This document shows positions 8,381 to 63,795 of a stretch of 64,000 nt of DNA, piece by piece. The stretch is from a virus. Position numbers and translations under genes: made by a program. The notes beneath the pieces are model-generated. The model did no database searches. It was given only the letters and a program-made list of their open reading frames with translations, and was not told the origin of the DNA. The stretch is from positions 16,076-80,075 of IMG/VR virus record IMGVR_UViG_3300003690_003399, one strand, 5' to 3'. Each line of letters opens with the position of its first letter. Position 1 is the stretch's first letter.

Positions 8381-8381
8381 A

Positions 8382-9335: not shown

Positions 9336-9337
9336 AA

Positions 9338-10132
9338 ATGGTTACGACTGTAAAAGATACCCAATTGAAAGCATTAAAGGATGTTGGTGCTTTTCTTAAA
9401 AACACAGATCAGAACAATCCACAGTTAGCTTCAACAATATGGAAGTATATTAACGATAACAATATCCAAACAGTCGTGTCACAAGCGGAATCTAATGATT
9501 ATAGTGAGAATTGGTCACAAGAACTGGTAGGAAAATTACAACGAATATTCGTTAATTACCAACTTCGACAGCTTAATTTGGGAAATCCCTCCCCGGTTTT
9601 TTTTAAACTAAAAGAAGCTTTAGATGTTCTACTGGATGAAAACCTTAGCTTGTCTTTGATCGATATTGGATGCACGAGTGGTTATTACTACGATGTTATT
9701 AACTTTTATTTTTCTAATAAATTCTATTATACGGGATGTGATTATAATAAAGAATCAATTGAATTGGCCAAAGAATATTATCCTACGATTAATTTTCAAG
9801 TCGAAGACATAACAGAACTAAGCTTTAAAGACCGTGAATTCGAAGTTTCTTTATTGGCGGGCGTTATTGAACATGTTCCACAGTATAAAAAGGGATTAAA
9901 AGAGCTATGCAGAATAACGGATAAATATATTGTTTTACACAGAATTTGGCTAACAGATGATGAGACTATTTGCAAAAAAGGAACACAATATTTTGTTCCT
10001 GTGATAAGAAACATGTATAATAAAGAAGATTTTTTTCATATTTTGAAAGAAAATAGTTTTACAGTTAAATGGAGTGGCGATGTTTATGACCAGAATTGTA
10101 GAACGTATATTTTAGAGAGAACAACTGAGTAG
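9338..10132 (+). CDS. Class I SAM-dependent methyltransferase
   Basis: A 264-aa protein. Residues about 105-220 form a Rossmann-type methyltransferase: motif I LIDIGCTSGYYYD, the acidic end of strand 2 in YTGCDYNKESIELAKEYY, a motif II region FQVEDITELSF, and the catalytic-face loop LLAGVIEHVPQYKKGL. The first 100 residues are helical and family-specific. It starts 2 bases after the GT2 gene, inside the glycan island, so a sugar O- or N-methylation role is likely. The closest style is the methyltransferase 11/23 type found with lipopolysaccharide genes. Confidence 0.8.
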   Translation: MVTTVKDTQLKALKDVGAFLKNTDQNNPQLASTIWKYINDNNIQTVVSQAESNDYSENWSQELVGKLQRIFVNYQLRQLNLGNPSPVFFKLKEALDVLLDENLSLSLIDIGCTSGYYYDVINFYFSNKFYYTGCDYNKESIELAKEYYPTINFQVEDITELSFKDREFEVSLLAGVIEHVPQYKKGLKELCRITDKYIVLHRIWLTDDETICKKGTQYFVPVIRNMYNKEDFFHILKENSFTVKWSGDVYDQNCRTYILERTTE

Positions 10133-10139
10133 GATTTTT

Positions 10140-10961
10140 ATGCTATTACCAGTAGCTTCTGTTGTAACTAATAAGACTATTTGCGAATTTGATTTACTTA
10201 AATTAAGCTTAGAACAATATCATGAGTGTAGCTGGGTCATTTCATGCGATGAAACGGCTTATCAAAAATACAATAATGTTGAAAATATTGAGTGTTTGAA
10301 GTTAATAGAAAGCGATGATTGCGATCATAATATAGCTTCAGAAGAACAGAAAGATAATTGGATGAAAGTCATGATGACCAAGTTTGATGCTGTTGAACGT
10401 TTAATCCTAAAGTTTAATCATGCTTTATTTTTAGATTCTGATATGATTTTTGTAAACCCCATTGAAGATAGAATATTAGAAATATTTAACAATGAAAATA
10501 TTGATGCGTGTATATGTCAACATATGACTAATGATTGGCAGAATGAAGCTCAACATGGATTATATAATGGTGGAATGTTTCATGTAAGAAGCAGTGATTT
10601 TATTGCTGAATGGAAAAGTCTATCTAAACAGTATAAAAAATATGGGTTTTATTTTGAACAGCAGCCTCTAGAATTTGTACAAAGAAATTTTAATTCTTTT
10701 AATCTCCCCATAAACTATAACATTGGGTGGTGGAGATTTAACAGGCCTAGCACTCAAAATAGATTGAATTTATTAAAGAATCTCGACGACAAGATATTTT
10801 TTGGCAACAAACCAGCAATTAATTTTCATGTGCATGCTTTACGTGAAATTGGATATCAAAACTTTGGTCAGTTTTTAGTTGAGAAAATTTGCAACTTATT
10901 AGATAACACATCTAATAAAAATTATAGGACGATTTTAGGGGTTATTAGAAATGGCGTTTGA
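10140..10961 (+). CDS. GT-A fold glycosyltransferase (DxD type)
   Basis: A 273-aa protein preceded by AGGA (bases 10132-10135) 4 bases from the ATG. It shows the nucleotide-diphospho-sugar transferase pattern: an N-terminal strand PVASVVTNK, a basic helix (KVMMTKFDAVERLI) and the metal-binding DxD in ALFLDSDMIFV, then LYNGGMFHVRSSDF, typical of GT8/GT77-like retaining enzymes, and a C-terminal His (NFHVHAL). The sugar is not predictable. It overlaps the next gene by 11 bases. Confidence 0.75.
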   Translation: MLLPVASVVTNKTICEFDLLKLSLEQYHECSWVISCDETAYQKYNNVENIECLKLIESDDCDHNIASEEQKDNWMKVMMTKFDAVERLILKFNHALFLDSDMIFVNPIEDRILEIFNNENIDACICQHMTNDWQNEAQHGLYNGGMFHVRSSDFIAEWKSLSKQYKKYGFYFEQQPLEFVQRNFNSFNLPINYNIGWWRFNRPSTQNRLNLLKNLDDKIFFGNKPAINFHVHALREIGYQNFGQFLVEKICNLLDNTSNKNYRTILGVIRNGV

Positions 10962-11574
10962 TTTGGTTGGAACAAATTATGGCGGTTGGATGATTGACAT
11001 TGATTTGATACCGCACCAAAGCGTCATTATTTCTGCCGGTGTGGGAGAGGATATAAGCTTTGATTTACAATTGATAAAAATGCGGAATTGCAAGATTATT
11101 GGTATTGATCCTACTCTCAAGAGTCATAGGTTTATAGAAAACCGAAAAAATCTTGATAACTTTAAGTTAATAAAGGGCGCCCTGCACCCTGCTGATGGTG
11201 ATGTTATCAAAATATACAAAACGAAGAGAAGTGACTATGTTTCAGAATCCATTTTACCAGATCATCAAAGCGTAAATAATTTTGATTCATATTTTTCAGA
11301 AACAATCAGCTTAAATAAAATCTTCGAAGAATATGAAGAGATTTCTGTTATCAAAATGGATATTGAAGGTTCTGAATACGGGGTAATACAGGCTTTAAAA
11401 TACATTCCTGATAGCGTTAAACAATTTTGTGTTGAATTCCATCATTTTTGCACCAGCAAAACCATTGAAGACACTAAAGAAATGATTAAAATGTTAGCAG
11501 AGTTAGGCTTCAAGAATTATGTCGAAAAGCCTTCTACCCAGCATTTAAACGAATTAACGTTTTGGAGGGGCTAA
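10951..11574 (+). CDS. FkbM-family methyltransferase
   Basis: A 207-aa protein with the FkbM layout: motif I VIISAGVGEDISFDLQL, strand 2 CKIIGIDPT, and the family signature VIKMDIEGSEYGVIQAL followed by VEFHH. FkbM enzymes are SAM-dependent O-methyltransferases often found in polysaccharide clusters. It overlaps the DxD glycosyltransferase by 11 bases and is followed with no gap by another Rossmann-type protein. Its likely substrate is a sugar hydroxyl on the island's glycan; the exact target is unknown. Confidence 0.85.
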   Translation: MAFDLVGTNYGGWMIDIDLIPHQSVIISAGVGEDISFDLQLIKMRNCKIIGIDPTLKSHRFIENRKNLDNFKLIKGALHPADGDVIKIYKTKRSDYVSESILPDHQSVNNFDSYFSETISLNKIFEEYEEISVIKMDIEGSEYGVIQALKYIPDSVKQFCVEFHHFCTSKTIEDTKEMIKMLAELGFKNYVEKPSTQHLNELTFWRG

Positions 11575-12369
11575 ATGGATTATTTCACTGACACAAAGAA
11601 AAAAATTATTTATGATCCAATAGAAACCATCGAGGCCCTAAAAGAATTTCATAATTTATATGCTAAACGCCCCGTTAAAAATAATTCAGGAGGGATGCAG
11701 TCTCCTCATCTTTTTAATACTTGGTATGCATTAAAAAAACTAAAACCTAAATTAGTAATTGAGAGTGGGGTGTGGAAAGGCCTCGGAACGTGGGCGATAG
11801 AGAAGGCGCTTCCCAGCGCTCAAATAATTTCAATAGATGTTGATTATTCACATTTAGAATTTAAAAGTTCAAATGCGACTTATCTAGATAAAGATATTAA
11901 AACTCATAACTGGGATAAAGTATTCAATGAACAATATCCCGATATTAAGAGAAATGAAATTGTAGTTTTTTTAGATGATCATCAAGATTTTTTAGAGCGA
12001 TTAGAATTTATTTATAATTTGGGAATAAAGCATATCTTATATGAGGATAACTATCCTTCTTCACAAGGAGACGTTCTTTCTCCTAAGAAAATTTTATCTT
12101 GTCAAGATTATATAATGGAGAGAAGAGGTATCCCCCAAATGAATCAATTTTCATATTTTGATTATGATAAATTTGTAAATTTTGTCAAAACTTATGAAGA
12201 GCTGCCCCCCATTTTTAAACTAGATAAAACTCGATGGAAAGATAAATGGGATCCCCATACTTATCCTACGATAAAAGCTTTGTTACCTTTAGAAAAACAA
12301 AATGAATTTCCTATTTTTTTTGAAGAAGCATTATCATATACATGGCTATGTTATATGGAATTAAAATAA
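11575..12369 (+). CDS. Methyltransferase-like (Rossmann) protein
   Basis: A 264-aa protein with a motif I-like strand and loop (LVIESGVWKGLGTWAIEKAL), strand 2 ending in an acid (AQIISIDVDYSHL) and a later DD in VVFLDDHQDF. This resembles class I SAM methyltransferases of the cephalosporin-hydroxylase/Rossmann type that bind metal and SAM. A good ribosome site, GGAGGGG, lies just before the ATG, overlapping the end of the FkbM gene. The C-terminal 90 residues are unusual and unassigned. Role in the glycan island is inferred from context. Confidence 0.6.
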   Translation: MDYFTDTKKKIIYDPIETIEALKEFHNLYAKRPVKNNSGGMQSPHLFNTWYALKKLKPKLVIESGVWKGLGTWAIEKALPSAQIISIDVDYSHLEFKSSNATYLDKDIKTHNWDKVFNEQYPDIKRNEIVVFLDDHQDFLERLEFIYNLGIKHILYEDNYPSSQGDVLSPKKILSCQDYIMERRGIPQMNQFSYFDYDKFVNFVKTYEELPPIFKLDKTRWKDKWDPHTYPTIKALLPLEKQNEFPIFFEEALSYTWLCYMELK

Positions 12370-12380
12370 GATACGATTAA

Positions 12381-13199
12381 ATGAACACGATTTACATAAT
12401 GAATTTTGATGACGTAAACGACCCTGTTAAAACCGAAGAAACTATCTTCAATCAATTATGGGAGCTTAAAGACACGATTAATACAGATTATGTGTATGTT
12501 GTTTTTCCGTGGGCATTTTCCATCAATCATCATGGCATTGTCCATACCCAGAAGCTTATTGATCAAATTTGTACTCAACACTGTGATAAAAAAATGTTTT
12601 TTGTTTGCCAACATATTTTAGTGAACAAATTAAACTTTCACGGTAATTTGGTCTTTACGCCGCATGCAACTATTTTAGATTCTTATGTGCCAATTCCACA
12701 TTATTCTTGCAATTATGAGTTAGAATTAGTTAAACCCTGGGATGAAAGAGAATATGAATTTAGCTTTATTGGATCTTTTCGTACACACCCTGTAAGGCAA
12801 AAGCTTTATGAATTTTTTAAAGCAAGGAAAGATTGCTTGATTGTTGATACCGGCTCTTGGCATTTTGAAGCATCCGAAAAGAAGCAAGAAATTAATGCAA
12901 GAAAGTACATTGAAATTTTAGGTAATACGAAATATTCGCTTTGCCCTAGAGGCACAGGACCATCTACTATTAGAATATGGGAGTCTATGGCAATGGGATC
13001 CTGTCCTGTGATTGTAAGTGACTATTTAAAAATGCCTTTAGAGCGTGAATTAGATTCTACAATGTGGTTAAGAGTACTGGAAAAGTGTGATAATATAAGG
13101 GATATAGATTTTTGCTTTGATAACGAAGAGTATTGGGAGTGGTTTTCTAATGAGAATTTGTATAGGTCGATTCTCAGCGCGCTAAGGGATAAAAAGTGA
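12381..13199 (+). CDS. Exostosin-like glycosyltransferase (GT47 type)
   Basis: A 272-aa protein whose C-terminal half matches the exostosin family: FSFIGSFRTHPVRQKLYEFF, then the donor-site signature YSLCPRGTGPSTIRIWES and MGSCPVIVSD near residues 188-215. Family enzymes in eukaryotes build heparan sulfate and plant cell-wall chains; bacterial and phage versions transfer sugars onto surface glycans. Its stop overlaps the GTG start of the next gene (GTGA), so the two are probably made in step. Confidence 0.84.
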   Translation: MNTIYIMNFDDVNDPVKTEETIFNQLWELKDTINTDYVYVVFPWAFSINHHGIVHTQKLIDQICTQHCDKKMFFVCQHILVNKLNFHGNLVFTPHATILDSYVPIPHYSCNYELELVKPWDEREYEFSFIGSFRTHPVRQKLYEFFKARKDCLIVDTGSWHFEASEKKQEINARKYIEILGNTKYSLCPRGTGPSTIRIWESMAMGSCPVIVSDYLKMPLERELDSTMWLRVLEKCDNIRDIDFCFDNEEYWEWFSNENLYRSILSALRDKK

Positions 13200-13885
13200 C
13201 AGAAATTTTAGTTATTGGAAACAAACCTTATACTAATCTATGTCTTAACAAGGTTGTTGATCGTTTTGATATAATTTATAGATTTAATCTTGCTTATCCC
13301 GGTAAAAATAATGGTACAAAATTTGGTAAGTTGGCAATGTGTCAACATGTGTACAATAATTTTGTAAAAAATCCTATTAGCAAGGAGCAAATAATACAAA
13401 TATATGGTCGAGAGCAGGAAGCAGTATTTGTAAGTGACTGGTATGATTTCTTTCAAGAAAATAAAGAAAACTTTGATGAGATATTTCATGAAAATGAACA
13501 CAATTGGGGGGAATGGAACAGGATGCTTGAAAAATATGGCAGTCCTCATAAATTTTCAAAAATGGCGTCAACAGGATATTCAGTTATTTTTAGAAATTTA
13601 GCAGCTGGCAATAGAGTATATGTTTCGGGCTTTACTTTATGTAATAATGAAATTAGAAAAACAATAGGAGAGAAAGATGAAGTTGTCAAAGCAAAAAATC
13701 AAGGGAAAACCTGTCACTCATTTTCTGACGAAAGTCGCATCTTAGCTTGGTTGCACAACAATAAAAAGATCGACGCAACATTGTGTATGTTAGATGACAC
13801 CGACGAACTTAGTCTAAAAATCAACGAATATAACACAGAACCTTCGGAGTTCATACTTAATTTATTAAATGGGAAAATATTATGA
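13196..13885 (+). CDS. GT29 (sialyltransferase-fold) glycosyltransferase-like protein
   Basis: A 229-aa protein from a GTG start. It carries all the diagnostic sialylmotifs in order. Motif L: ILVIGN at residues 4-9 with VDRFDIIYRFN at 21-31. Motif S: ASTGYSV and VYVSGFTL around 124-148. Motif VS: His174 followed four residues later by Glu179 (HSFSDE), the catalytic His-x4-Glu spacing. GT29 enzymes use CMP-activated acidic sugars. The same island encodes KDO synthesis, so CMP-KDO is the likely donor, as proposed for plant GT29 proteins. Donor choice is inference; the fold assignment is fairly firm. Confidence 0.75.
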   Translation: MTEILVIGNKPYTNLCLNKVVDRFDIIYRFNLAYPGKNNGTKFGKLAMCQHVYNNFVKNPISKEQIIQIYGREQEAVFVSDWYDFFQENKENFDEIFHENEHNWGEWNRMLEKYGSPHKFSKMASTGYSVIFRNLAAGNRVYVSGFTLCNNEIRKTIGEKDEVVKAKNQGKTCHSFSDESRILAWLHNNKKIDATLCMLDDTDELSLKINEYNTEPSEFILNLLNGKIL

Positions 13886-14232
13886 AAATACAAGGTAAAG
13901 TGTGGGGAAAGACCCAAGATATATTTAAAAACTCTAATTTTGAGCTTCATAGAATCGAGGCCAGAAAAGGCGGGTTTTGCTCAAAGCACCAACATAAGCA
14001 TAAATATAATGCTTTTTTTGTTGAAAAAGGCAAGCTAAAGATAACAATATATGAAATTGATTATGATTTGGTCGATGAAACTATCATCTCCACAGGAGAG
14101 CTAACAATAGTTAAGCCTGGAGCCTACCACAGATTTGAGGCACTCGAAGATACAATTTGTTATGAAATCTATTGGGTAGAATTGGATCATGACGACATAG
14201 AAAGGGAAGACGTTGGCGGGAACATTAAATAA
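13882..14232 (+). CDS. Cupin-domain protein
   Basis: A 116-aa single-domain cupin. The metal-site pattern is visible: KHQHKHKYNAFFVEKGKL (cupin motif 1) and PGAYHRFEAL (motif 2). Small cupins in polysaccharide clusters act as sugar epimerases, isomerases or sensors, often fused to or beside sugar-nucleotide enzymes. It overlaps the GT29-like gene by 4 bases and the kdsB gene by 20 bases, so it is probably tied to CMP-KDO production or use. Exact reaction unknown. Confidence 0.8.
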   Translation: MKIQGKVWGKTQDIFKNSNFELHRIEARKGGFCSKHQHKHKYNAFFVEKGKLKITIYEIDYDLVDETIISTGELTIVKPGAYHRFEALEDTICYEIYWVELDHDDIEREDVGGNIK

Positions 14233-14923
14233 AATAGGTATCATACCAGCGAGACTACACTCAACAAGGTTTCCTAAAAAAATATTAACAGATATAAATG
14301 GAAAGCCGATGGTGATATGCACAGCCGAACAAGCGTCTAAAGCTAAAAGTTTAGATAGAGTACTTATAGCTATTGATAGTGACGAAACATATCAAGCCTT
14401 AAAAGACTTTAATTATGAATTAGTAATGACATCAAACGAGCACAAGTCAGGAACAGATAGAATTGCAGAAGTGGTAAAGCGCATTAAAAGTATTGATATA
14501 GTTGTTAATATTCAAGCAGATGAGCCTTTTATCGACCCTACACTAATTGATAAACTAACAGAAGCCCATCTTGATTCAACTGTAGAAATGTCAACACTGG
14601 TCAGCACACAACTATCAACAAAAGACTATGATAATGAAAGCATTGTCAAAGCTTTTTTAAATGAAAATAATTTCGTAACAGACTTTAAAAGAAAATCTAG
14701 GGCGCGCCATAAGCATTTAGGCATATACGGTTTTACAAGAAAAACATTATTAGATTTTATATCATTTGAACAGACAGTCAACGAAAAAAACAGAAATCTA
14801 GAGCAAATGAGAGCGCTCGATAATGGGATTAAGATTAAAGCTGTGTTAACCAGTAAAGATTCTTTATCTATTAACACATTAAATGATCTTTTATATGTTT
14901 ATAAAAAGGGCAATACGCGATGA
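14213..14923 (+). CDS. kdsB: 3-deoxy-manno-octulosonate cytidylyltransferase (CMP-KDO synthetase)
   Basis: A 236-aa protein with the KdsB hallmarks: GIIPARLHSTRFPKKIL at the N-terminus (CTP-binding loop), DINGKPMV, TSNEHKSGTDRIAEV, VVNIQADEPFIDP and HKHLGIYGFTRKTL. The enzyme joins KDO to CTP to give CMP-KDO. Normal length is about 245-255, so it is near full size. The start appears to be TTG at 14213, 20 bases inside the cupin gene, preceded by GGGAAG; no ATG is available near the conserved start. KDO is a Gram-negative lipopolysaccharide and capsule sugar. kdsA lies at 19836 in the same island. Confidence 0.9.
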   Translation: MAGTLNKIGIIPARLHSTRFPKKILTDINGKPMVICTAEQASKAKSLDRVLIAIDSDETYQALKDFNYELVMTSNEHKSGTDRIAEVVKRIKSIDIVVNIQADEPFIDPTLIDKLTEAHLDSTVEMSTLVSTQLSTKDYDNESIVKAFLNENNFVTDFKRKSRARHKHLGIYGFTRKTLLDFISFEQTVNEKNRNLEQMRALDNGIKIKAVLTSKDSLSINTLNDLLYVYKKGNTR

Positions 14924-15831
14924 AACCCTTAGATATATCTAAAAAGTCTATGAAAAAAGGAATGAAAGACAACATAGAAAGGAAGCAGCCTTCTATAAAC
15001 GATGTCGTTAGACACAAAGGTCTCCCCTTGTTCAGCTTTATTGAATTAAATATAAATGAAATTTGTAATAGAGTATGTCCTTTTTGCCCAAGAGTGGATC
15101 CAAAAATATATCCTAATCAAAATATCCACATGGATATGGAAATAGTGGAAAAAATAGCTGAACAACTTAAAGAATTGAATTTTACTGGTATTGTGAATAT
15201 AAGCGGTACCGGGGAACCGCTACTAACCAAATATATCACTGATATTATAAATGAATTTGGAAAACGAGGAATTCATATTGAAATAGTGACCAATGGTGAT
15301 GTACTGCAAAGCCGGAAAGGGCCAGAGTTAATCAAAAATTTATATGCAGCAGGATTGCAACAGTTTGTAGTTAGCATGTATGACGGCCCTGAGCAAATAG
15401 AATCATTTAATACGTTATTTGCTAGTTGTGGTATAGATGAAAGCTTATACTCCTTAAGGGATAGGTGGTACGATGAATCAGAGGATTATGGGCTCCTGTA
15501 TACAAATAGAGCCGGTAACATAGGGTTTGAACATTTATCGGACATAGCTAAAGAAAAGTTAATAAATTCAGGCAAGTCGGCTTGTTTTTATACACATTAT
15601 TCTATGATGATTGATTGGAATGGTGATGCGTTATTGTGCTGCCAAGACATGTATAATCGTACAGTAAAATTTGGAAATGTTAAAAACAAATCTCTTATCG
15701 ATATATGGAGAGATACAAAACTAATGGAATTTAGAAATAAACTTAAAAATGGGGAGAGGTCATCATCACCCTGTAATAATTGCAATGCAAATGGTCAAAT
15801 ATTTGGAAGCAATCATGTAAAAGCATGGTAG
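14920..15831 (+). CDS. Radical SAM protein with C-terminal cysteine (SPASM/Twitch-like) region
   Basis: A 303-aa protein. The CxxxCxxC cluster motif is at residues 49-56 (CNRVCPFC), followed by SGTGEPLL (the GGE-like SAM contact) and VTNGDVL. The C-terminal third has CFYTHYSMMI, DALLCCQDM and CNNCN, which suit an auxiliary iron-sulfur site as in SPASM/Twitch proteins. It overlaps kdsB by 4 bases. Radical SAM enzymes in sugar clusters carry out epimerisation, dehydration or carbon-skeleton changes; which one occurs here cannot be told. Confidence 0.87.
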   Translation: MKPLDISKKSMKKGMKDNIERKQPSINDVVRHKGLPLFSFIELNINEICNRVCPFCPRVDPKIYPNQNIHMDMEIVEKIAEQLKELNFTGIVNISGTGEPLLTKYITDIINEFGKRGIHIEIVTNGDVLQSRKGPELIKNLYAAGLQQFVVSMYDGPEQIESFNTLFASCGIDESLYSLRDRWYDESEDYGLLYTNRAGNIGFEHLSDIAKEKLINSGKSACFYTHYSMMIDWNGDALLCCQDMYNRTVKFGNVKNKSLIDIWRDTKLMEFRNKLKNGERSSSPCNNCNANGQIFGSNHVKAW

Positions 15832-15839
15832 GTCGAAAA

Positions 15840-16487
15840 ATGAATTATATTTTTAAACCAAATGGAGACAAACTAGAGTTTGTTGGCGATTTTGAGGCAC
15901 TTTATCAAAATGACAACGACCCGTGGAATCAGTCAGGAAAAGATGGAGAAATAAGCTATTACTATGCTCATAGCAGAAAGAGGCTGGTCGATCAGCTAAA
16001 GAAAATCAATCCCGACTCTTTGCTTGAAACCGGATGCGATTTGGGCTATACTACCAAGATCATTCAGAAATCTTTACCAGATTGCAATGTTGTTGGCATG
16101 GATATTAGTAGAACGGCAATAGTGAAGGCTGTAAACTTATTCCCTAATTTGGACTTCATAACTGAAGATATTGGTAGCGCAAACTTTAATTCAGATACAA
16201 AATATGATGTAGTTATTCTAAATCAATTGTTGTGGTATGTCTTAGAATCGCTTTCCGAGACATTTGAAAATTGTTTTTCTATACTAAATCCAAATGGTAG
16301 GATAATAATCAGCCAAGCATTTTTACAGGCACCACAGAAATACGGGAAAGATATTTGTGATGGGTTTGATGGGTTAATCAGTTACTTGAGCGACCACAAG
16401 TTTAATATAGAATATTCTCAATTAGATAATTCTAATTCTTTTGTCCATAATGATGGGCTGATCATATTAAAAAAGCATGATAGTTAA
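15840..16487 (+). CDS. Class I SAM-dependent methyltransferase
   Basis: A 215-aa protein; I chose the ATG at 15840, after the radical SAM stop, because the earlier in-frame ATG lies inside that gene. Motif I is LLETGCDLGYTTK, strand 2 gives VVGMDISRTAIVKA, motif II FITEDIGSANF and the post-motif strand DVVILNQLLWYVL. This resembles NodS- and SAM-12-type methyltransferases. It overlaps the aminotransferase gene by 11 bases. A methylated sugar product is likely; target unknown. Confidence 0.78.
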   Translation: MNYIFKPNGDKLEFVGDFEALYQNDNDPWNQSGKDGEISYYYAHSRKRLVDQLKKINPDSLLETGCDLGYTTKIIQKSLPDCNVVGMDISRTAIVKAVNLFPNLDFITEDIGSANFNSDTKYDVVILNQLLWYVLESLSETFENCFSILNPNGRIIISQAFLQAPQKYGKDICDGFDGLISYLSDHKFNIEYSQLDNSNSFVHNDGLIILKKHDS

Positions 16488-17604
16488 AAAAGCCTATAAA
16501 TGTTATATTGAAAATGATAAAGGTGTCAAGCTAATTGACACCTCAATGGGGTCAGGTGTCCAAATAATAGGACACAACAACCCGTTGATTAAAGAAATGG
16601 GCAAGCAGATAGAAAGAGGAACTATTTATACAATTCCCAACTGCCACACAGGTAAGGTAAATTCTTATTTGAAAGAACACATAAACCCCGATCTTGATGA
16701 GCAATACATATTCTGTAATTCGGGTACGGAAGCTAACATGAGGGCTATAAGATTAGCCCGTGCATACACAGGCAAAAATTTAGTTGGCAGATTCCATGGC
16801 GGCTGGCACGGCGGACTAGATGGTTTCCTAGAAGAACACCCCGACAACAAGGGTATACCTTCAGAGACTGATAGCTTGTTTAGGGTCTTGCCCTACAATG
16901 ATGATCAGTGTTTCGAGAAGATTACTCATGATATGGCTGCTGTAATAACAGAGCCCGTGCAGGGATCTAATCCTAGATCTGACGTTAAACAGTTTCTGCA
17001 AAAATTAAGAGCCCATTGCACCAAGACGGGAGTATTGTTAATATTTGATGAAGTTCTGACGGGATTTAGATTATCCGCAAAGGGTGCCGCTGGTGTTTTT
17101 AATGTGATGCCCGATATAGTAACTTATGGGAAAGTTTTAGGAGGAGGATTCCCAATTGGAGCGGTTGGCGCCAAGTCAGAAATTATAAAAACAAAAAATG
17201 TTTTTTATGGAGGAACTTTTTCTGCGAATCCATTAAGCATGTATGCCGCTATCCTAATTCTTGAAACTATAATTGATACAAAGTACATTCAATACGATAA
17301 GCTAAATTATGCTGGAAAGCTATTTAGAGGTGAATTAAATAAGTTTTTTATTGCGGAAGATAAAAAAATGAGAGTAATAGGCTGCGGCGCAGTCAATAGA
17401 ATTATCTTTACAGATAAATTTATCAAAAATAGAAAAGATAGAGATAACTTTGAGCCTAAAAATGCACAAGAAATGTTTTCTAATAAACTAAAAGAACTGG
17501 GTGTGTTTATTAATGGAAATGGACTATATCATTTTTCTATGAGTCATACACCAGAGGTTATTAAAGAACTTATTAATATAATCAAACTAGCGAGCAAAAC
17601 ATGA
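16477..17604 (+). CDS. Class III PLP aminotransferase, glutamate-1-semialdehyde aminomutase-like
   Basis: A 375-aa fold-type I PLP enzyme. Visible features: FCNSGTEANMRAIRLARAYTG (phosphate loop), GRFHGGWHG, ITEPVQG, the PLP-contacting LIFDEVLTGFR (Asp191) and the Schiff-base lysine Lys219 in TYGKVLGGGFPIGA. These match the HemL branch, slightly shorter than HemL (about 430). HemL relatives outside heme synthesis work on sugars and small keto acids, and the setting among KDO and glycosyltransferase genes suggests an aminated sugar. It is not the DegT-type used for 8-amino-KDO. Overlaps the next gene by 4 bases. Confidence 0.85.
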   Translation: MIVKKAYKCYIENDKGVKLIDTSMGSGVQIIGHNNPLIKEMGKQIERGTIYTIPNCHTGKVNSYLKEHINPDLDEQYIFCNSGTEANMRAIRLARAYTGKNLVGRFHGGWHGGLDGFLEEHPDNKGIPSETDSLFRVLPYNDDQCFEKITHDMAAVITEPVQGSNPRSDVKQFLQKLRAHCTKTGVLLIFDEVLTGFRLSAKGAAGVFNVMPDIVTYGKVLGGGFPIGAVGAKSEIIKTKNVFYGGTFSANPLSMYAAILILETIIDTKYIQYDKLNYAGKLFRGELNKFFIAEDKKMRVIGCGAVNRIIFTDKFIKNRKDRDNFEPKNAQEMFSNKLKELGVFINGNGLYHFSMSHTPEVIKELINIIKLASKT

Positions 17605-18410
17605 AGATTGAAAAGTGCTGCAAAGAGGATATATTTAAATGTATAGACCTACAGGAAAATGATGTTATCTTATATTTGGGGGGAAGAATTGACGATGACG
17701 CCCTATACCCGCCGGGATACAGAGAATATTTAAAGGCTAAAATAAAAAAGTTGAAGCCAACTAAAATAATTTGTCACAACCACTGGTATGCTAAGAAATA
17801 TTATGAGAAGGGAATCTTAACCAAGCATACTAAAATAGATATGGTATTAGTTTGTTACCACCATCTTAGAAACGGTAATTTCCCATCAATTGATCCTGCG
17901 GATTATATCGATCATCGCACCTACATGAAGACATTGATAGATAAGAATCCTAGCATAGTCTATGCAATATATATAAGCCAGGGAAACAAGCCCCCCTCGG
18001 TGGATGTTAACGATGGTTGGTTTAGAGAAGATTACGATCTAAATAATGCTAAATACTTCTCTTTCGATAGAACATATTCTCCCAAGGATTTAACGGATGA
18101 GGAACTGGGTCATGGAGGACGAACAAGAAATGCTAGTGATGGGTTTGCTATGGTTGCCAATTTGGTGAAGGCGGGTTTTAAGAATATAAATATACTTGGA
18201 TTTTCTGCATTTGGATCCGATGAAGACATGTCTTATCATACTGCGTATAAGTCAGGAGACCGTAGGCTCTTCGGTCGAAAATACTTCAATCTTGGTACCT
18301 CGGAAGATCAACCAGCAGAAGCAGATATATTGCAATTTTGGGTAAAAACTAAAAAGATAAAGAACGTGGAAGATTATAGTAAATTGATGTTTCACTTAAA
18401 GGAGAAATAA
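17601..18410 (+). CDS. Putative glycosyltransferase, divergent GT29-like
   Basis: A 269-aa protein sharing one segment with the GT29-like protein at 13196: NASDGFAMVANLVKAGFKNI then INILGFSAFG, which looks like sialylmotif S. Near the end EADILQFWVKTKKIKNV resembles the region after motif VS. A clear motif L is missing, replaced by NDVILYLGGRIDDDA near residue 20 and KIICHNHW near 55, so donor binding may differ. It may be a second transferase for an acidic sugar or only a related fold. It starts 4 bases inside the aminotransferase gene. Confidence 0.5.
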   Translation: MKIEKCCKEDIFKCIDLQENDVILYLGGRIDDDALYPPGYREYLKAKIKKLKPTKIICHNHWYAKKYYEKGILTKHTKIDMVLVCYHHLRNGNFPSIDPADYIDHRTYMKTLIDKNPSIVYAIYISQGNKPPSVDVNDGWFREDYDLNNAKYFSFDRTYSPKDLTDEELGHGGRTRNASDGFAMVANLVKAGFKNINILGFSAFGSDEDMSYHTAYKSGDRRLFGRKYFNLGTSEDQPAEADILQFWVKTKKIKNVEDYSKLMFHLKEK

Positions 18411-18412
18411 AT

Positions 18413-19123
18413 ATGGTAGACAAAAAAAAAAGAGAGGAGTATAACAAATCTTTGGAGTACAACGGACAAGCGTTGGCAGACAAATTTGTTTTAAATTGCA
18501 CAGGTTTTAAGAGGGGTGGTTACTTTTTAGAACTAGGATCTAGGGAGTTTAAACGGAACAACAACTCTTATATTTTAGAGAAAAGTTTTGGATGGAAAGG
18601 TGTGATGGTCGAAAAGGTCGCTACACACAAAGGAGACTATAAATCCAATAGACCGAACAGCATACCTATCATCCAAGACGCCACTCAAATAAACTATAAA
18701 AAAGTATTTGAGGATAATAATTTTCCGTCTAATTTGGATTTTTGGCAATTAGATTTAGAGGTGAGAGACAATACCGCTTTAGATACCTTAATAAAGATTA
18801 ACGAAGAAATACTGGGTTATTATAGTTTTGCAACAGTAACAATGGAACACGATATTTATAATGGTCTGCAAAATTCTGTCAATACTCGAATTAAATCAAG
18901 AGAGATTTTAGAGAGCAGAGGTTACTACTGTGTGTTTAGAGATACTATGACTTTCATGGACGGTCCGCCGAACTCTCCCTACGAAGATTGGTGGGTCCAT
19001 CCAGACTTAGTTAATATGGAATATATAAAATCCCTTCAGGAAAGAAATCAAGATAATTATTCATTAATTAATGTAAAGGGAAGAAATATAGAGTGTTTCA
19101 ACTCTGATCTGATAGAATATTAA
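18413..19123 (+). CDS. FkbM-like methyltransferase
   Basis: A 236-aa protein with a motif I-like loop FLELGSREFKRNNNSYILEK and GWKGVMVEK, the opening pattern of FkbM-type methyltransferases, then FWQLDLEVRDNTAL where FkbM proteins have an LKIDVEG-like strand, and TVTMEHDIY. The SAM loop is less standard than in the 10951 protein, so activity is less certain. A ribosome site GGAG lies 8 bases before the ATG. It sits between the GT29-like and 2OG oxygenase genes. Confidence 0.62.
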   Translation: MVDKKKREEYNKSLEYNGQALADKFVLNCTGFKRGGYFLELGSREFKRNNNSYILEKSFGWKGVMVEKVATHKGDYKSNRPNSIPIIQDATQINYKKVFEDNNFPSNLDFWQLDLEVRDNTALDTLIKINEEILGYYSFATVTMEHDIYNGLQNSVNTRIKSREILESRGYYCVFRDTMTFMDGPPNSPYEDWWVHPDLVNMEYIKSLQERNQDNYSLINVKGRNIECFNSDLIEY

Positions 19124-19138
19124 ATAGAGGGTAATAAA

Positions 19139-19831
19139 ATGCAACCAACCATAAAAGACCTTTTCGATAAAATTCAGAATGCAGAAGTTCAGACTGAACC
19201 GTTTGATCATCTGGTTGTAGATAATTTATTACCTGATGATTTTTTTAAAGAGCTAGCTAAAGAATTAGAGGCTGAGGACTTTCCTAGCAATTATGTAAGG
19301 GGGCCTTACGGAAATAAAGAACGCTTTGGGGTAGATTTAACAGATTATTCTGCTTGGAAAACCTCTGGAAAGAATCTTCCCATAAAGATCCACGAGGGTA
19401 ATTACAAATCATTATCATCGGGAAAGAGTGCCAATGTTCAATTCTTTGTTGACCTTCTTTTGGAAAATGAAAAGGGCTTTTATTCTTTACTTGGCTCTAA
19501 ACTGCCTACTGAGAGATTTCAAGATAACTATTTTTTTCATGTAAATATGACCAAAGATAGCGTAGGCTACACAATAGAAGCCCACACAGACGATAAAGAG
19601 AACATTTTTACTATTCTTTTCTACACTCCAGAGACAGATGTAAATAAAGAGTTCGGACTACATGTCTGTAAAGAAAAAATAGATTTTATGCCTAATAGAA
19701 TGATCATTTTTGCTCCCTCTAAACCACACAGCGAGAGGACACCCACTTGGCATGAAGTAAAGCGCTTATCAGATAAATTAATTGGAACGAGAAATTCGTT
19801 CCAAATGTTTTTTTTAAGAAATAATAGCTAA
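19139..19831 (+). CDS. 2-oxoglutarate/Fe(II) oxygenase-like protein
   Basis: A 230-aa protein. The iron-binding HxD is at His149-Asp151 (EAHTDD) in a jelly-roll strand followed by FTILFYTP, and a distal histidine (His197 in PSKPHSER or His205 in TWHEVK) is followed by an arginine that could hold 2-oxoglutarate. The N-terminal FDHLVVDNLLPDDFF is a usual opening of prolyl-4-hydroxylase-like phage oxygenases. The substrate may be a sugar, a lipid or a protein side chain; the glycan island makes hydroxylation of a sugar or lipid plausible. Confidence 0.75.
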   Translation: MQPTIKDLFDKIQNAEVQTEPFDHLVVDNLLPDDFFKELAKELEAEDFPSNYVRGPYGNKERFGVDLTDYSAWKTSGKNLPIKIHEGNYKSLSSGKSANVQFFVDLLLENEKGFYSLLGSKLPTERFQDNYFFHVNMTKDSVGYTIEAHTDDKENIFTILFYTPETDVNKEFGLHVCKEKIDFMPNRMIIFAPSKPHSERTPTWHEVKRLSDKLIGTRNSFQMFFLRNNS

Positions 19832-19835
19832 GGAT

Positions 19836-20606
19836 ATGATAAATACTAAATTCATAATAGCTGGACCATGTGTGTTAGAATCAAAAGATATGTGTCTAGA
19901 AATAGCAAAATATTGTAAATCTATTTGTGATGAATACGGCTTTACATATGTTTTTAAAGCTTCGTTTGATAAAGCAAACAGGACTTCAATAAATTCATTT
20001 AGAGGCCCCGGATTGAAGAAATCAATAGATACATTCGTTGAAATAAGAAAGCATGTAGACTTCATAACTACCGATATACACGAACCTTATCAGGCAAAAG
20101 AAATTGCTCCATATGTAGATGTAATACAAATACCTGCTTTCCTTTGTAGACAAACAGATCTGCTAGTTGCAGCAGGAGAGACTGGTAAAATTGTTAATAT
20201 TAAAAAAGCCCAATTTTTATCTGTTGATAAGATGGAGCACGCAATTAAAAAAATCTATCATACTGGTAACAAAAATGTGATGTTGACAGAACGAGGTTCC
20301 ATGCTGGGCACGGACGATTTAGTGGTTGACTTCAGGAATATACATAAATTAAAACAATTTGGCTGTCCAGTTATTATGGATGTTACGCATGCTTGTCAAA
20401 CATATAAGCAAACAAATGGTATAACTGGCGGGAATAGAATTTATGGTCCACTCTTTGCTCAGTGTGCTAAAATATTTGGTGCTGATGGCACCTTCGCAGA
20501 GGTCCACCCAAAACCAGAGGCAGCATTGAGTGATTCTGCAAATACTATGAATTTTAATATGTTTGAGAACATGGTAAAAGCATTAGCAACATTGGAGGAT
20601 GATTAA
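19836..20606 (+). CDS. kdsA: 3-deoxy-8-phosphooctulonate synthase (KDO-8-phosphate synthase)
   Basis: A 256-aa aldolase-type barrel with nearly all KdsA signatures: IAGPCVLES at the N-terminus, VFKASFDKANRTS, FRGPGL, TTDIHEP, IQIPAFLCRQTDLL, NIKKAQFLS, MLTERGSMLG, PVIMDVTHACQ and EVHPKPEAALSD. It condenses phosphoenolpyruvate with arabinose 5-phosphate. Slightly shorter than bacterial KdsA (about 270-284). With the neighbouring HAD gene (1-base overlap) and kdsB upstream it could supply CMP-KDO from host arabinose 5-phosphate; no arabinose-5-phosphate isomerase (KdsD) is seen here. Confidence 0.94.
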   Translation: MINTKFIIAGPCVLESKDMCLEIAKYCKSICDEYGFTYVFKASFDKANRTSINSFRGPGLKKSIDTFVEIRKHVDFITTDIHEPYQAKEIAPYVDVIQIPAFLCRQTDLLVAAGETGKIVNIKKAQFLSVDKMEHAIKKIYHTGNKNVMLTERGSMLGTDDLVVDFRNIHKLKQFGCPVIMDVTHACQTYKQTNGITGGNRIYGPLFAQCAKIFGADGTFAEVHPKPEAALSDSANTMNFNMFENMVKALATLEDD

Positions 20607-20926
20607 TGATTTATTACGTTGATATTGACGAAACAATTTGTGATTATGAAGGCGGCGATAAATACGCCGCAAGGGATTATGAGAACGCTAGACCAATAAA
20701 AGAAAACATTCAGAAAATAAATGATCTATTTGATGAAGGGCATACAGTGGTTTATTGGACAGCCAGAGGTAGTACCACTGGAATTGATTGGTATGATCTT
20801 ACTGGCCGCCAACTAAAAGAGTGGGGTGCTAAGCACCATAACTACAAGGTTGGAAAGCCTGCTTATGATGTTTTTATATGTGACAAAGCAATAAATTCTG
20901 AAGTTTTTTTTAAGGAAGGAGAATAG
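20606..20926 (+). CDS. Small HAD-superfamily phosphatase, candidate KDO-8-phosphate phosphatase
   Basis: A 106-aa protein starting YYVDIDETICDY, with the HAD nucleophile and acid/base pair Asp6 and Asp8 (DxDxT), then VYWTARGS where HAD motif II Ser/Thr lies, a lysine in YKVGKPAYD and a final acidic pair near ICDKA. It has no large cap. It begins on the last base of kdsA, so tight coupling suggests it removes phosphate from KDO-8-phosphate, replacing KdsC. It is smaller than KdsC (about 170-190 aa). The substrate is inferred from position. Confidence 0.72.
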   Translation: MIYYVDIDETICDYEGGDKYAARDYENARPIKENIQKINDLFDEGHTVVYWTARGSTTGIDWYDLTGRQLKEWGAKHHNYKVGKPAYDVFICDKAINSEVFFKEGE

Positions 20927-20927
20927 A

Positions 20928-21479
20928 ATGAAAGAATACAATAACACTGATCGAACTGCTAGCTTAGAAAGACTCGCACCGGATTTGTTCAAATATAAAT
21001 CGGTTTTGAATATAGGCGCCCGCACTAGTCGATTTAATTATGGACAAGAATTTAGAGAAGCGGGGTATAATATTACGGTTTTGGAGCCGTTTAAACCAAA
21101 TGTAGAATATTTGCGTACATTACTGTGGATACATGAAGTTATTCAAGGAGACGTTCGTGATTTGAAAGTTTTTAAGGAAAGAGAGCAAAAATTTGATGTT
21201 GTTTTCTGGTGGCATGGCCCCGAGCATGTGATAGAAGAAGATATGATAAAGGTTATACCCGAACTAGAAAAAATTTGTAATCATCTGGTTGTGTTGGGGT
21301 GTCCATGGGGACATTGCCCGCAAGGCGAGATTCATAATAATCCATGGGAAAAGCACATTGGGCACTATTCATATTATGTGTTCGAAGAATTTGGTTATGA
21401 TGTTGAATGCTTGGGCCTACAGAGCGTCGCAGGATCTAACATTACAAGCGTGAAGAGAATAGACGGGAGAAAAAAATGA
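20928..21479 (+). CDS. SAM-dependent methyltransferase-like protein
   Basis: A 183-aa protein with motif I VLNIGARTSRFNYGQEF, strand 2 NITVLEPFKPNVEYL, motif II VIQGDVRDLKVF, and strand 4 KFDVVFWWHGPEHVIEEDM. The layout is that of small class I methyltransferases. Two His-rich segments (GCPWGHCPQ, EKHIGHYSYY) follow. An AGGAGA ribosome site lies just before the ATG. It overlaps the dehydrogenase gene by 4 bases. Substrate unknown. Confidence 0.7.
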   Translation: MKEYNNTDRTASLERLAPDLFKYKSVLNIGARTSRFNYGQEFREAGYNITVLEPFKPNVEYLRTLLWIHEVIQGDVRDLKVFKEREQKFDVVFWWHGPEHVIEEDMIKVIPELEKICNHLVVLGCPWGHCPQGEIHNNPWEKHIGHYSYYVFEEFGYDVECLGLQSVAGSNITSVKRIDGRKK

Positions 21480-22312
21480 AAGTTGGAATTGTTGGTCAAG
21501 GATTTGTAGGACAAGCTCTTAAAAAAGGTTTTGAAAAATATTTTCATATTGAAACTTATGATAAGTTTAAGAAGAAAGAATCAAGTTGCTTAAGTTTAGA
21601 AGAGCTAACATCTAAAACAAAGATAATTTTTATTTGCGTGCCCACCCCAATGAACAAAGATGGTACGTGTAATTTAAATATAGTTAATGAAGTCGTACGG
21701 AACATTGATTTTTGTAATAATAAAAATGTTGTCGTAATCAAATCTACCATCCCACCAAACACCACCGCTATGTTAAACGCTGAGTGTAATAATATACAAG
21801 TTATTTTTAACCCAGAATTTTTAACAGAAGCTAACTTTATTGAAGATTTCAAAAATCAAACTAGAATTATTATTGGCGGTCCGCGCCCAGGTTCAACACT
21901 GGTTAAAAATTTATACAGAAAAGCATTTCCTGAGACGCCATTGATTAAAACTAGTTCAACAATTGCAGAAATGGTTAAGTATTTTACTAACTGTTTTTTA
22001 GCCACAAAAGTTAGTTTTTCTAATGAAATTAAACAAATATGTGAAAAAATTGATATAGATTATGATAAAATAGTAGAGTACGCTTTATATGATAGCCGAT
22101 TGGGGAAAACGCACTTCTCAGCTCCGGGCCCAGACGGAAAAAGTGGGTTTGGTGGATCCTGTTTTCCTAAAGATTTAAATGCGCTAATTAAAACGGCTGA
22201 AAATTTAGATATAGATCCTAAAGTTTTAAAATCAGTCTGGGAAAAGAATCTTGAAGTAAGACCAGAGAAAGACTGGGAAAAATTAAAAGGAAGAGCCGTA
22301 AGCGAATCATGA
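21476..22312 (+). CDS. UDP-glucose/GDP-mannose dehydrogenase family protein lacking C-terminal domain
   Basis: A 278-aa protein. Residues 1-150 form the NAD domain (GIVGQGFVG, then FICVPTPM, KSTIPPNTT and NPEFLTEANF); 155-250 form the central dimer domain, with Lys178 and the catalytic Cys229 in GFGGSCFPKDL. Typical UDP-glucose 6-dehydrogenases have about 390-450 residues and a third, UDP-binding domain, which is absent here. The missing domain may mean a different substrate or a partner subunit. It closes the glycan island. The next gene's ATG overlaps its stop by 4 bases. Confidence 0.85.
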   Translation: MKVGIVGQGFVGQALKKGFEKYFHIETYDKFKKKESSCLSLEELTSKTKIIFICVPTPMNKDGTCNLNIVNEVVRNIDFCNNKNVVVIKSTIPPNTTAMLNAECNNIQVIFNPEFLTEANFIEDFKNQTRIIIGGPRPGSTLVKNLYRKAFPETPLIKTSSTIAEMVKYFTNCFLATKVSFSNEIKQICEKIDIDYDKIVEYALYDSRLGKTHFSAPGPDGKSGFGGSCFPKDLNALIKTAENLDIDPKVLKSVWEKNLEVRPEKDWEKLKGRAVSES

Positions 22313-61736: not shown

Positions 61737-62309
61737 ATGATATTAGGACTAGACATCTCAACCAGTATCACTGGCTATACAGTGGTAGACCATGAAGGCA
61801 AAATAATTCGCTGCGATGCGTGGGACATGCGTAATAAAAAGATATTTAAAGATCATTTTGAAAAGGCAAAATCTATAAAAGATGACCTTTGTTTTTTAAA
61901 AGCCCAGTACCCCATTAGTCAAATTTATATTGAAGAGCCATTTATGTTTTTTAACTCGGGTGGCTCTTCAGCAAAAACCATGGCGGTCCTTCAAAAGTTT
62001 AATGGGATTGTTTCATGGATTTGTTATGATATATTTACTCTCACACCAAATTATGTGAGAGCCGGCGAAGCACGGAAGCTTTGTGGAATAAAAGTACATA
62101 GAGGACAGAAAGCAAAGAAAGTTGTCATTCAATGGCTACTTGACAATGAGCCAGATTTTAAGGTAGAATATACATCAAAAAACAATCCGAAGCCTAAATA
62201 TTATGATATGGCGGACTCAGTGGTAATTGCTAAAGCTGGCTACTATTTATTCAAGAAGCAGAACCCACAAGTTTGTTATAACAAGGACTTACCAAATGAA
62301 ACTAACTAA
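61737..62309 (+). CDS. RuvC-like Holliday-junction resolvase/RNase H-fold nuclease
   Basis: A 190-aa protein with the RuvC catalytic layout: Asp6 in LGLDISTSITGY, Glu66/Glu67 in IYIEEPF, and Asp157/Asp160 in YYDMADSVVIA. The lysine/basic part (KVHRGQKAKKVVI) near 120 suits DNA contact. Such phage nucleases resolve recombination and replication branches before packaging. Its last 14 bases overlap the first gene of the tandem array, which starts at an ATG in another frame. Confidence 0.88.
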   Translation: MILGLDISTSITGYTVVDHEGKIIRCDAWDMRNKKIFKDHFEKAKSIKDDLCFLKAQYPISQIYIEEPFMFFNSGGSSAKTMAVLQKFNGIVSWICYDIFTLTPNYVRAGEARKLCGIKVHRGQKAKKVVIQWLLDNEPDFKVEYTSKNNPKPKYYDMADSVVIAKAGYYLFKKQNPQVCYNKDLPNETN

Positions 62310-62712
62310 ATCAAAACTTAAGCAACTAATCAAAGAAGTCTTTGAGGGCGAAAGCAAAGGAACCGACGCATACCCCCAATATGAATATCTTTTAGATGAA
62401 TTAGTTGACGCCGCCAGAAACGCTATAATGCCACTGGCAGTTGAAAAACTAAAAGAGGTGGGGGCCTTGAGCGAAGAAGAGGGAAGAGGTTTAACTTATA
62501 ACGATGTTGAATTAGAAATTGAAGAACCCTTAATGGATGCGCTTAAGCCACTAGCTAAATTAATTCAAGATAAAGTAGATCATGCCCCGGGCCGAGAGGA
62601 TGAAGAAGAATACGAAGAAGAGGAAGAGAAATACGCGCCTTCTACGGAATATACGAGTCCGAGTTTTCGCACGGCGCGAATGCAAAGCGGCTATTTCCAA
62701 GGAAAAAATTAA
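62296..62712 (+). CDS. Tandem-array protein 1 with shared N-terminal peptide, 138 aa
   Basis: I chose ATG 62296 because the same nucleotide block begins the next three genes; longer in-frame starts lie inside the resolvase gene. Protein: MKLTKSKLKQLIKE, then VFEGES and a helical body (LLDELVDAARNAIMPLAVEKLKEV), then an acidic stretch (EDEEEYEEEEEKY) and a Ser/Thr/Arg tail. The N-terminal peptide is a basic amphipathic helix ending I-K-E. It resembles the targeting/cleavage peptides of T4 internal head proteins. Family unknown to me. Confidence 0.65.
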   Translation: MKLTKSKLKQLIKEVFEGESKGTDAYPQYEYLLDELVDAARNAIMPLAVEKLKEVGALSEEEGRGLTYNDVELEIEEPLMDALKPLAKLIQDKVDHAPGREDEEEYEEEEEKYAPSTEYTSPSFRTARMQSGYFQGKN

Positions 62713-63075
62713 ATGAAACTAACTAAATCAAAACTTAAGCAACTCATTAAAGAAGCATTCGAAGAAGAACTCGATGAGCCAGGTACCGGCGAAGAACGGT
62801 ACAACAATCGAGGGCCCCACCCGGAAGGTGCGCTTCCAGGCCAAGGCCCCGGGGAAAAGGACTGGTGGGTCCCTGTAATGAGTCAGCTGATTCATGATGC
62901 AGCGGCCTTGTTTAAAAACGTGCCCGGCCGCGGCAAGGAGCTTTTAATAGAAAATTTCGAAATGACCGCTGAAGCATGGAAGAAAGACCTAGGTGGCTAT
63001 GAGACAAAATGGAAAGCAGAACTAGGAGCTGACCACCCAGAAGAGGAATACGACGAAGAAGAGAGAGAAATCTAA
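62713..63075 (+). CDS. Tandem-array protein 2 with shared N-terminal peptide, 120 aa
   Basis: Starts right after array gene 1. N-terminus MKLTKSKLKQLIKEAFEEEL is nearly identical to gene 1, and the first 43 bases differ at only two positions. Body: a Gly/Pro-rich segment (GPHPEGALPGQGPG), a helical Trp-containing stretch (DWWVPVMSQLIHDAAALF) and an acidic end (PEEEYDEEEREI). LIKE followed by Ala gives I-x-E/A, as in T4 head protease sites. Its stop overlaps the next start (TAATG). Confidence 0.65.
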   Translation: MKLTKSKLKQLIKEAFEEELDEPGTGEERYNNRGPHPEGALPGQGPGEKDWWVPVMSQLIHDAAALFKNVPGRGKELLIENFEMTAEAWKKDLGGYETKWKAELGADHPEEEYDEEEREI

Positions 63076-63458
63076 TGAAACTTACTAACTCAAAACTTAA
63101 ACAACTTATTAAAGAAATAGCAGAAGAAAGCGAATGGGATGTTAGCAAGCGCACCTCGTTTCCTCGCGTCGTAGCCCAGATCTTAAGCGCCCTAAGAGAA
63201 GCACAAGACATTCTCGAAGGTGGCCACCTAGATGAAGAAGCGCCAGTTTCTTCTTCCACTATAGAAAATATACAAAAGATATTAGATCATCCCGCGCTTG
63301 CGGCGATGGAAGAAATGGTACCTCCCGAGGAAGATGAATATGAAGCATCTGTTTATGACAAAGAAGAATCTGCTGCTCGCCGAGAAGGCCCGTCAACTCC
63401 GATGACACCAGAAGACAGCGCGCCCCTTTGGGACGACGATGACGAAGAGGGCTGGTAA
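63075..63458 (+). CDS. Tandem-array protein 3 with shared N-terminal peptide, 127 aa
   Basis: N-terminus MKLTNSKLKQLIKEIAEESE keeps the shared helix with one Lys-to-Asn change and several synonymous base changes. The body has a helical region (RVVAQILSALREAQDILEGG), an acidic/proline stretch (MVPPEEDEYEAS) and a very acidic end (WDDDDEEGW). No cysteines or membrane segments. It overlaps gene 2 by one base and gene 4 starts 2 bases after its stop. Confidence 0.65.
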   Translation: MKLTNSKLKQLIKEIAEESEWDVSKRTSFPRVVAQILSALREAQDILEGGHLDEEAPVSSSTIENIQKILDHPALAAMEEMVPPEEDEYEASVYDKEESAARREGPSTPMTPEDSAPLWDDDDEEGW

Positions 63459-63459
63459 A

Positions 63460-63795
63460 ATGAAACTAACAAAATCACAACTAAAGCAAATCATTAAAGA
63501 AGAGCTTCAAAAAGTATTGCAAGAACGGCAGCGGCGGCCAGCCGAAACCATCGGAGGGACGAAGGAGTACCCCTATGTCCCGGACATAGAACCCACACCG
63601 GAAGATTATGAATGCACAGACGTAAGCGATTGCTATGAAATATTTCCCTCTGTGGCCGGCCAGTGTGATGAAATCGTTTGTCTAGAGTGCCGGCCACCGG
63701 CCAATCGCATGCCTTGGCCAACGCACCGGCCGCGCGGTCGGTGTTACGACAAAGTAACCAAGGAGTACTGGGATGAGGATTACGAGACGTCTTAA
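63460..63795 (+). CDS. Tandem-array protein 4 with shared N-terminal peptide, cysteine-rich, 111 aa
   Basis: I chose ATG 63460, where the shared peptide begins (MKLTKSQLKQIIKEELQKVL); an in-frame ATG 21 bases earlier lies in gene 3. The body is unlike the other three: six cysteines (DYECTDVSDCY, QCDEIVCLECRPP, GRCYDK), a knottin- or zinc-like pattern, and Pro/Arg-rich stretches. The DNA from about 63640 to 63750 is much more GC-rich than its surroundings, with GGCCGGCC and several CCGGCC words, which suggests a different origin for the body. Confidence 0.62.
   Translation: MKLTKSQLKQIIKEELQKVLQERQRRPAETIGGTKEYPYVPDIEPTPEDYECTDVSDCYEIFPSVAGQCDEIVCLECRPPANRMPWPTHRPRGRCYDKVTKEYWDEDYETS

Follow-up and report, generated by a model that had tools for sequence, protein, structure and literature searches.

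A shared N-terminal peptide on unrelated proteins of marine T4-like phages: a probable capsid-targeting propeptide

Four tandem genes of an uncultured marine T4-like phage open with one peptide, here called tag A, and continue into bodies that are unrelated to each other. We consider it probable, at roughly 0.7, that this peptide is a T4-like capsid-targeting propeptide carried by a hypervariable set of cargo proteins. Docking to a partner, packaging, cleavage and injection are steps that we infer. The sequence-only reading of this DNA had proposed such an address tag, cut after I-K-E. Selection on the peptide, the unrelated bodies, the exchange of tags, the link to a prohead protease and the clustered L/I-x-E motifs speak for the proposal, while the placement of the cut and the length of the tag had to be revised.

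The tagged locus and its relatives

The window is the stretch of 64,000 nucleotides that was analysed, G000:16076-80075 of an 80,075-base virus record (G000). Its four tagged genes (Table 1) lie in tandem on the + strand at 62296-63795, as had been read from the sequence, and each starts at or adjoining the stop of the preceding one. The common N-terminal peptide is conserved in the DNA as well: two changes, both synonymous, separate the 42 bases of copy 1 from those of copy 2. The bodies of the tandem genes are indeed mutually unrelated, with a best blastp E value of 4.3. Acidic tails had been ascribed to all four genes; they are present in copies 1-3, and the end of copy 4 is weakly acidic.

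Over all pairs of the five copies in the record, the 42 bases of tag DNA differ at 2-8 positions, the next 42 bases at 21-34, and the 30 bases upstream of the tag at 18-24. Thus, the similarity begins at the ATG and ends about 14-16 codons later, and a shared upstream regulatory sequence was rejected on the last of these counts. In-frame start candidates are found upstream of copy 1 (TTG 62227) and copy 4 (ATG 63439); the conserved start codon in both genes is the ATG opening the tag.

Table 1. Features of the tagged locus (window positions unless a record is named)
Feature	Position	Strand	Basis or remark
Left flank, conserved, RuvC/RNase H-like resolvase	61737..62309	+	Sequence motif; without Pfam match
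Tagged gene copy 1, 138 aa; two-helix body, disordered acidic tail	62296..62712	+	ORF, tag, homologues, model
Copy 1 tag MKLTKSKLKQLIKE	62296..62337	+	I-K-E14 is the sole L/I-x-E in residues 1-30
Tagged gene copy 2, 120 aa	62713..63075	+	ORF and tag
Copy 2 tag MKLTKSKLKQLIKE; second L-x-E site LDE22	62713..62754	+	Motif
Tagged gene copy 3, 127 aa	63075..63458	+	ORF and tag
Copy 3 tag MKLTNSKLKQLIKE; second site IAE17	63075..63116	+	Motif
Tagged gene copy 4, 111 aa, Cys-rich body	63460..63795	+	ORF and tag
Copy 4 tag MKLTKSQLKQIIKE; second site LQE22	63460..63501	+	Motif
Right flank, conserved primase gene start, zinc-finger end, cut by contig end	63870..63998	+	
Tagged gene copy 5, N-terminus MKLTKSKLKQLIKEELRKALHES, outside window	G000:14321-14665 (= L001:14321-14665)		

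In the structure model of copy 1, the N-terminal helix (residues 5-16) stands apart. Residues 15-26 are modelled with low confidence and read as a flexible linker; they are followed by a body of two confidently predicted helices and by an acidic tail predicted to be disordered. This prediction is compatible with a detachable tag on a folded body. Foldseek gave no credible match for the model and no PDB match. Homologues of the copy 1 body are found in L067 (79%), L114 (66%), and L060 and L020 (43%), and every one begins with a tag. Scans of close relatives gave no match to the copy 1, 2 or 4 body, and for copies 2 and 4 no relative of the body was found. Copies 4 and 5 are Cys-rich, with about six Cys each, and tagged bodies overall are Cys-poor (0.4%); these two are possibly disulfide or metal-binding cargo.

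The flanks of the locus are stable. The primase start is 98% identical over 43 aa in L154, and the resolvase is 90%, 71% and 58% identical in L154, L155 and L157, where the neighbourhood is kept. The order tail - resolvase - primase is retained in G033 (resolvase 90%), G034 (71%) and G035-G037 (58%), with tagged or tag-like genes between resolvase and primase or just after. Between close relatives, the bodies are wholly replaced and the flanking genes are 76-98% identical. A prohead protease is encoded about 12-18 kb beyond the locus in G034-G037.

A cultured relative is Flavobacterium phage immuto (MW353175), which encodes gp21 and gp23. A diverged tag, MKKSxLxxIIKEL, opens its genes 176, 177 and 191; it is shorter and does not match the strict tag pattern. 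Genes 176 and 177 lie four genes before gene 180, which is annotated as DNA primase, and occupy the same place as the window locus. A second common N-terminus, ENFDLKKFLVENKLTxNSxLLxE, is found on genes 179, 194 and 195 (L148:41806-42354, L144:5632-6932) and is possibly a further address tag. The tagged proteins of immuto are annotated as hypothetical.

The record also holds a surface-sugar gene block at window positions 6105-22312, with a glycosyltransferase, a class-III aminotransferase, a UDP-glucose/GDP-mannose dehydrogenase, a cytidylyltransferase (kdsB-like, 14213) and a DAHP-synthase-family protein (kdsA-like, 19836). With these genes, the phage may synthesize or modify a sugar of the Kdo type. 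Outside the window, L001:1262-2203 combines MENWRKGQEKLLLE near its N-terminus with a TMEM65 domain (E 3.5e-30), and L001:7118-11152 encodes a 1344-aa protein with the murein endopeptidase domain Peptidase_M74.

Distribution of the tag

In IMG/VR, a degenerate tag pattern has matches in at least 119 stretches. At least 333 ORFs with tag A were collected, and 39 with tag B and 10 with tag D, two sister tags, were added; the bodies of these ORFs fall into at least 317 families. The peptide, sought on other genes of related phages, is therefore present on hundreds of otherwise unrelated proteins. Reversing the pattern gave 0 matches in 33 records in which the true pattern gave 1-14 per record, and the true pattern had 0 matches among 50 random viral contigs, so the occurrence of the tag is not due to chance. 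Among 84,980 bacterial and archaeal genomes, the pattern matched five stretches on three contigs, all from MAGs, and a phage protease is also present in two of the three MAG assemblies. By this pattern, the tag appears to be restricted to viruses.

Searches of cultured phages using tblastn with the 22-aa tag found nothing; the low-complexity filter may mask the tag, so this null is no evidence that it is absent. The strict pattern has no match in S-PM2, Syn9 and P-SSM2, and the tag is thus not universal in T4-like phages. Searches of the literature turned up no description of the motif. No Pfam or PHROGs family corresponds to the shared N-terminus, and no family matched more than two of the 122 proteins scanned.

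A cleavage motif at the end of the tag

Of 242 nonredundant tagged proteins, 135 (56%) have an [L/I]-x-E, the motif of T4 gp21, within residues 15-26, against a shuffle expectation of 46 +/- 5.5 (z about 16); later windows of the same proteins give 19-27. At offset 20, L/I and E occur jointly in 70 proteins, compared with 46 for independent columns. The clustering of this second motif at residues 15-26 indicates a tag of about 22 residues. The sequence-only reading had described a basic helix ending in I-K-E; the conserved unit extends beyond it. The full consensus of tag A is MKITKSQLKQIIKEEL-x-x-V-L-x-E. Across 310 ORFs, conservation is partial at residues 16, 19, 20 and 22 and absent from residue 23 onwards. 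The hydrophobic moment of the tag helix is non-significant against shuffles.

T4 gp21 cuts at sites with a small residue directly after E. In 92% of tagged proteins, position 15 is occupied by E, so the second site, near residues 17-22, is a likelier cut than I-K-E14, which is also possible. The expected motif is thus present, displaced from the cut first proposed. Four of the five copies in the record have a second site; copy 1 has I-K-E14 alone, and LDE22 of copy 2 is followed by proline. A conserved [VL]L[RK]E, followed by [AS], is also found in the propeptide of the clade's major capsid proteins. Comparable T4 sequences are FLTE (gp23), LIAE (gp22) and FIAE (ipIII), each followed by A, with the T4 cut positions taken in part from PMC5694885.

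The head module and the sister tags

Co-occurrence with a gp21-like protease was checked with Peptidase_S77, which is present in 19 of 33 large tag contigs and 2 of 14 random contigs (Fisher p 0.007). The controls, all >50 kb, are few and unmatched in lineage, so common ancestry may explain part of this co-occurrence. Among tag contigs >100 kb, 13 of 15 encode the protease, and no S77 protease is detectable in the other two. It was also sought in the G000 record and not found, probably because this fragment ends before the head module. The nearest tag lies within 12.5 kb of the protease in 14 of 19 contigs, compared with 6.1 expected under rigid shifts; some tags are located far from head genes.

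The head module has the order portal - protease - conserved ~140-aa protein - S21-like - gp22-like - gp23. In 11 of 19 head modules, tag A- or B-like ORFs lie beside the protease or up to about two genes away. The N-terminus of the conserved ~140-aa protein is itself a tag-like helix, which reads KRSVLKQLIKECLVEILVEG in one jumbo phage. An HMM trained solely on tag sequences matches this protein in L165 with E 3e-4 (best reversed match 0.12); the similarity is significant in this one jumbo member and weak in others. This resemblance suggests that the tag may be a copy of a core-protein helix. The ~140-aa protein has no match among cultured phages, and its predicted model is poor. The small basic ORF between it and the gp22-like gene in most of L126-L143 resembles ribosomal protein S21, and the homologue in Microcystis phage Mel-JY01 is annotated RpsU. 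In L143, a head-module protein (8692-9675) begins with a tag, and its C-terminus has a tag-like helix.

Tag B (MKLLFENWRKYLxE) and tag D (MAIRKNKKxIDPRYF(L/M)xE) are both unrelated to tag A. They are likewise short and N-terminal, and end in L/M-x-E; in tag B, [LI]xE falls exactly at W+4 in 24 of 38 cases. The G000 record carries tag B at L001:2181 and L001:3329. A single gene with two tag A units, 114 residues apart, is seen at L060:5919-6770 on the - strand.

The tag could instead dock proteins to another machine, such as RNA polymerase, the replisome, the tail or baseplate, or the membrane, and have nothing to do with head packaging. The position of the window cluster, between tail genes and primase and outside the head module, would suit such a role. 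However, L/I-x-E clusters at the tag end, tags occur near the prohead protease, and tag A is exchanged with the similarly built tag B, which is found in head-module slots. We regard docking to another machine as unlikely.

Separate histories of tag and body

In 7 of the 38 body families with more than one member, the tag (A, B or D) differs between homologous bodies. The best cross-tag pairs reach an identity of 67% for A/B (109 aa), 82% for A/D (77 aa) and 75% for B/D (71 aa). Pfam finds scattered domains on the tagged bodies, none of them common, including P-loop kinase or zeta-like, NUDIX, pentapeptide and leucine-rich repeats, and kinase-like domains.

These results bear on the possibility that the genes are recent duplicates whose bodies have diverged past recognition, leaving the tag as the slowest-changing part of one family. 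The tandem layout and the acidic tails of several copies would fit duplication, as would the synonymous divergence of the tags, which is lower within G000 (0.25) than between contigs (0.42). The bodies, however, belong to distinct domain families across contigs, homologous bodies bear different tags, and the sequences break abruptly after the tag. Tag and body therefore have separate histories, and a single diverged family is improbable. Plain whole-gene duplication was rejected, as the bodies are unrelated and tags are exchanged on homologous bodies.

In codons 2-15 of 310 tagged ORFs, positions 1 and 2 are kept and position 3 varies at most codons, which indicates that selection acts on the peptide. 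The near-identical DNA of copies 1 and 2, and the potential of tag DNA as a recombination seam, would suit a stretch that acts as nucleic acid (a translation start signal, regulatory RNA or recombination site), but the free third positions, which largely refute a nucleotide-level element, and the lack of common upstream sequence make this very improbable. The sequence TATAAATA is over-represented in the window; it lies mostly on the opposite strand and was left unused for that reason.

Proposed mechanism and relation to known systems

If the peptide is a capsid-targeting propeptide, its helix of about 14-16 residues would attach the small, unrelated cargo proteins to the prohead core while the head assembles. 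The short stretch after the helix would end in L/I-x-E near residues 17-22 (possibly also I-K-E14), where a gp21-like prohead protease would cut, leaving the cargo inside the head. The rapidly replaced cargo would then be ejected with the DNA and act on the host or its defences; by analogy with T4, it is presumably injected into the host.

The capsid-targeting sequence (CTS) of T4, carried by the internal proteins and Alt and cut by gp21, is likewise a short N-terminal peptide on unrelated, variable cargo. Both systems share the I/L-x-E motif, and many tag-carrying phages have a gp21-type protease and a T4-like head gene order. In contrast, tag A has no alignable similarity to the ipIII sequence MKTYQEFIAE, and tag B resembles ipIII in layout only. 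The T4 CTS has 10-20 residues, whereas the tag here has about 22. The system described here also has a far larger repertoire of putative cargo, several interchangeable tags and clustered cargo genes.

The giant phages SPN3US and phiKZ package head cargo with N-terminal propeptides that are cut (PMC5694885). In SPN3US, the first 15 residues of two paralogues are identical, a feature that the authors likened to a CTS (PMC5694885). The propeptides of these giant phages, however, are mostly >100 residues and cut at A-x-E, whereas the protease associated with the tags here is of the T4-type S77 family. Immuto is similar in its diverged tag before the primase and its second common N-terminus, although this second tag differs from B and D.

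A broader proposal, which we hold tentatively at slightly less than even odds, is that a marine T4-like phage group, jumbo members included, uses at least three unrelated, interchangeable N-terminal codes to load hundreds of hypervariable cargo families into the head, with the main code copying the N-terminal helix of a conserved head-module protein and the tag DNA serving as an exchange seam. On this proposal, the sequence of an unknown phage protein would be enough to tell whether it is packaged and reaches the host.

The majority of small proteins in phages lack an assigned function. If packaged cargo is what the tag marks, hundreds of unknown proteins from uncultured marine phages could be classed as virion-internal and probably delivered. 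Cargo turnover at one locus could then be interpreted as the trace of conflict with hosts. The tag also provides defined peptides and candidate cut sites, and would be a further system, separate from T4, in which to study how internal proteins are chosen by a T4-type head.
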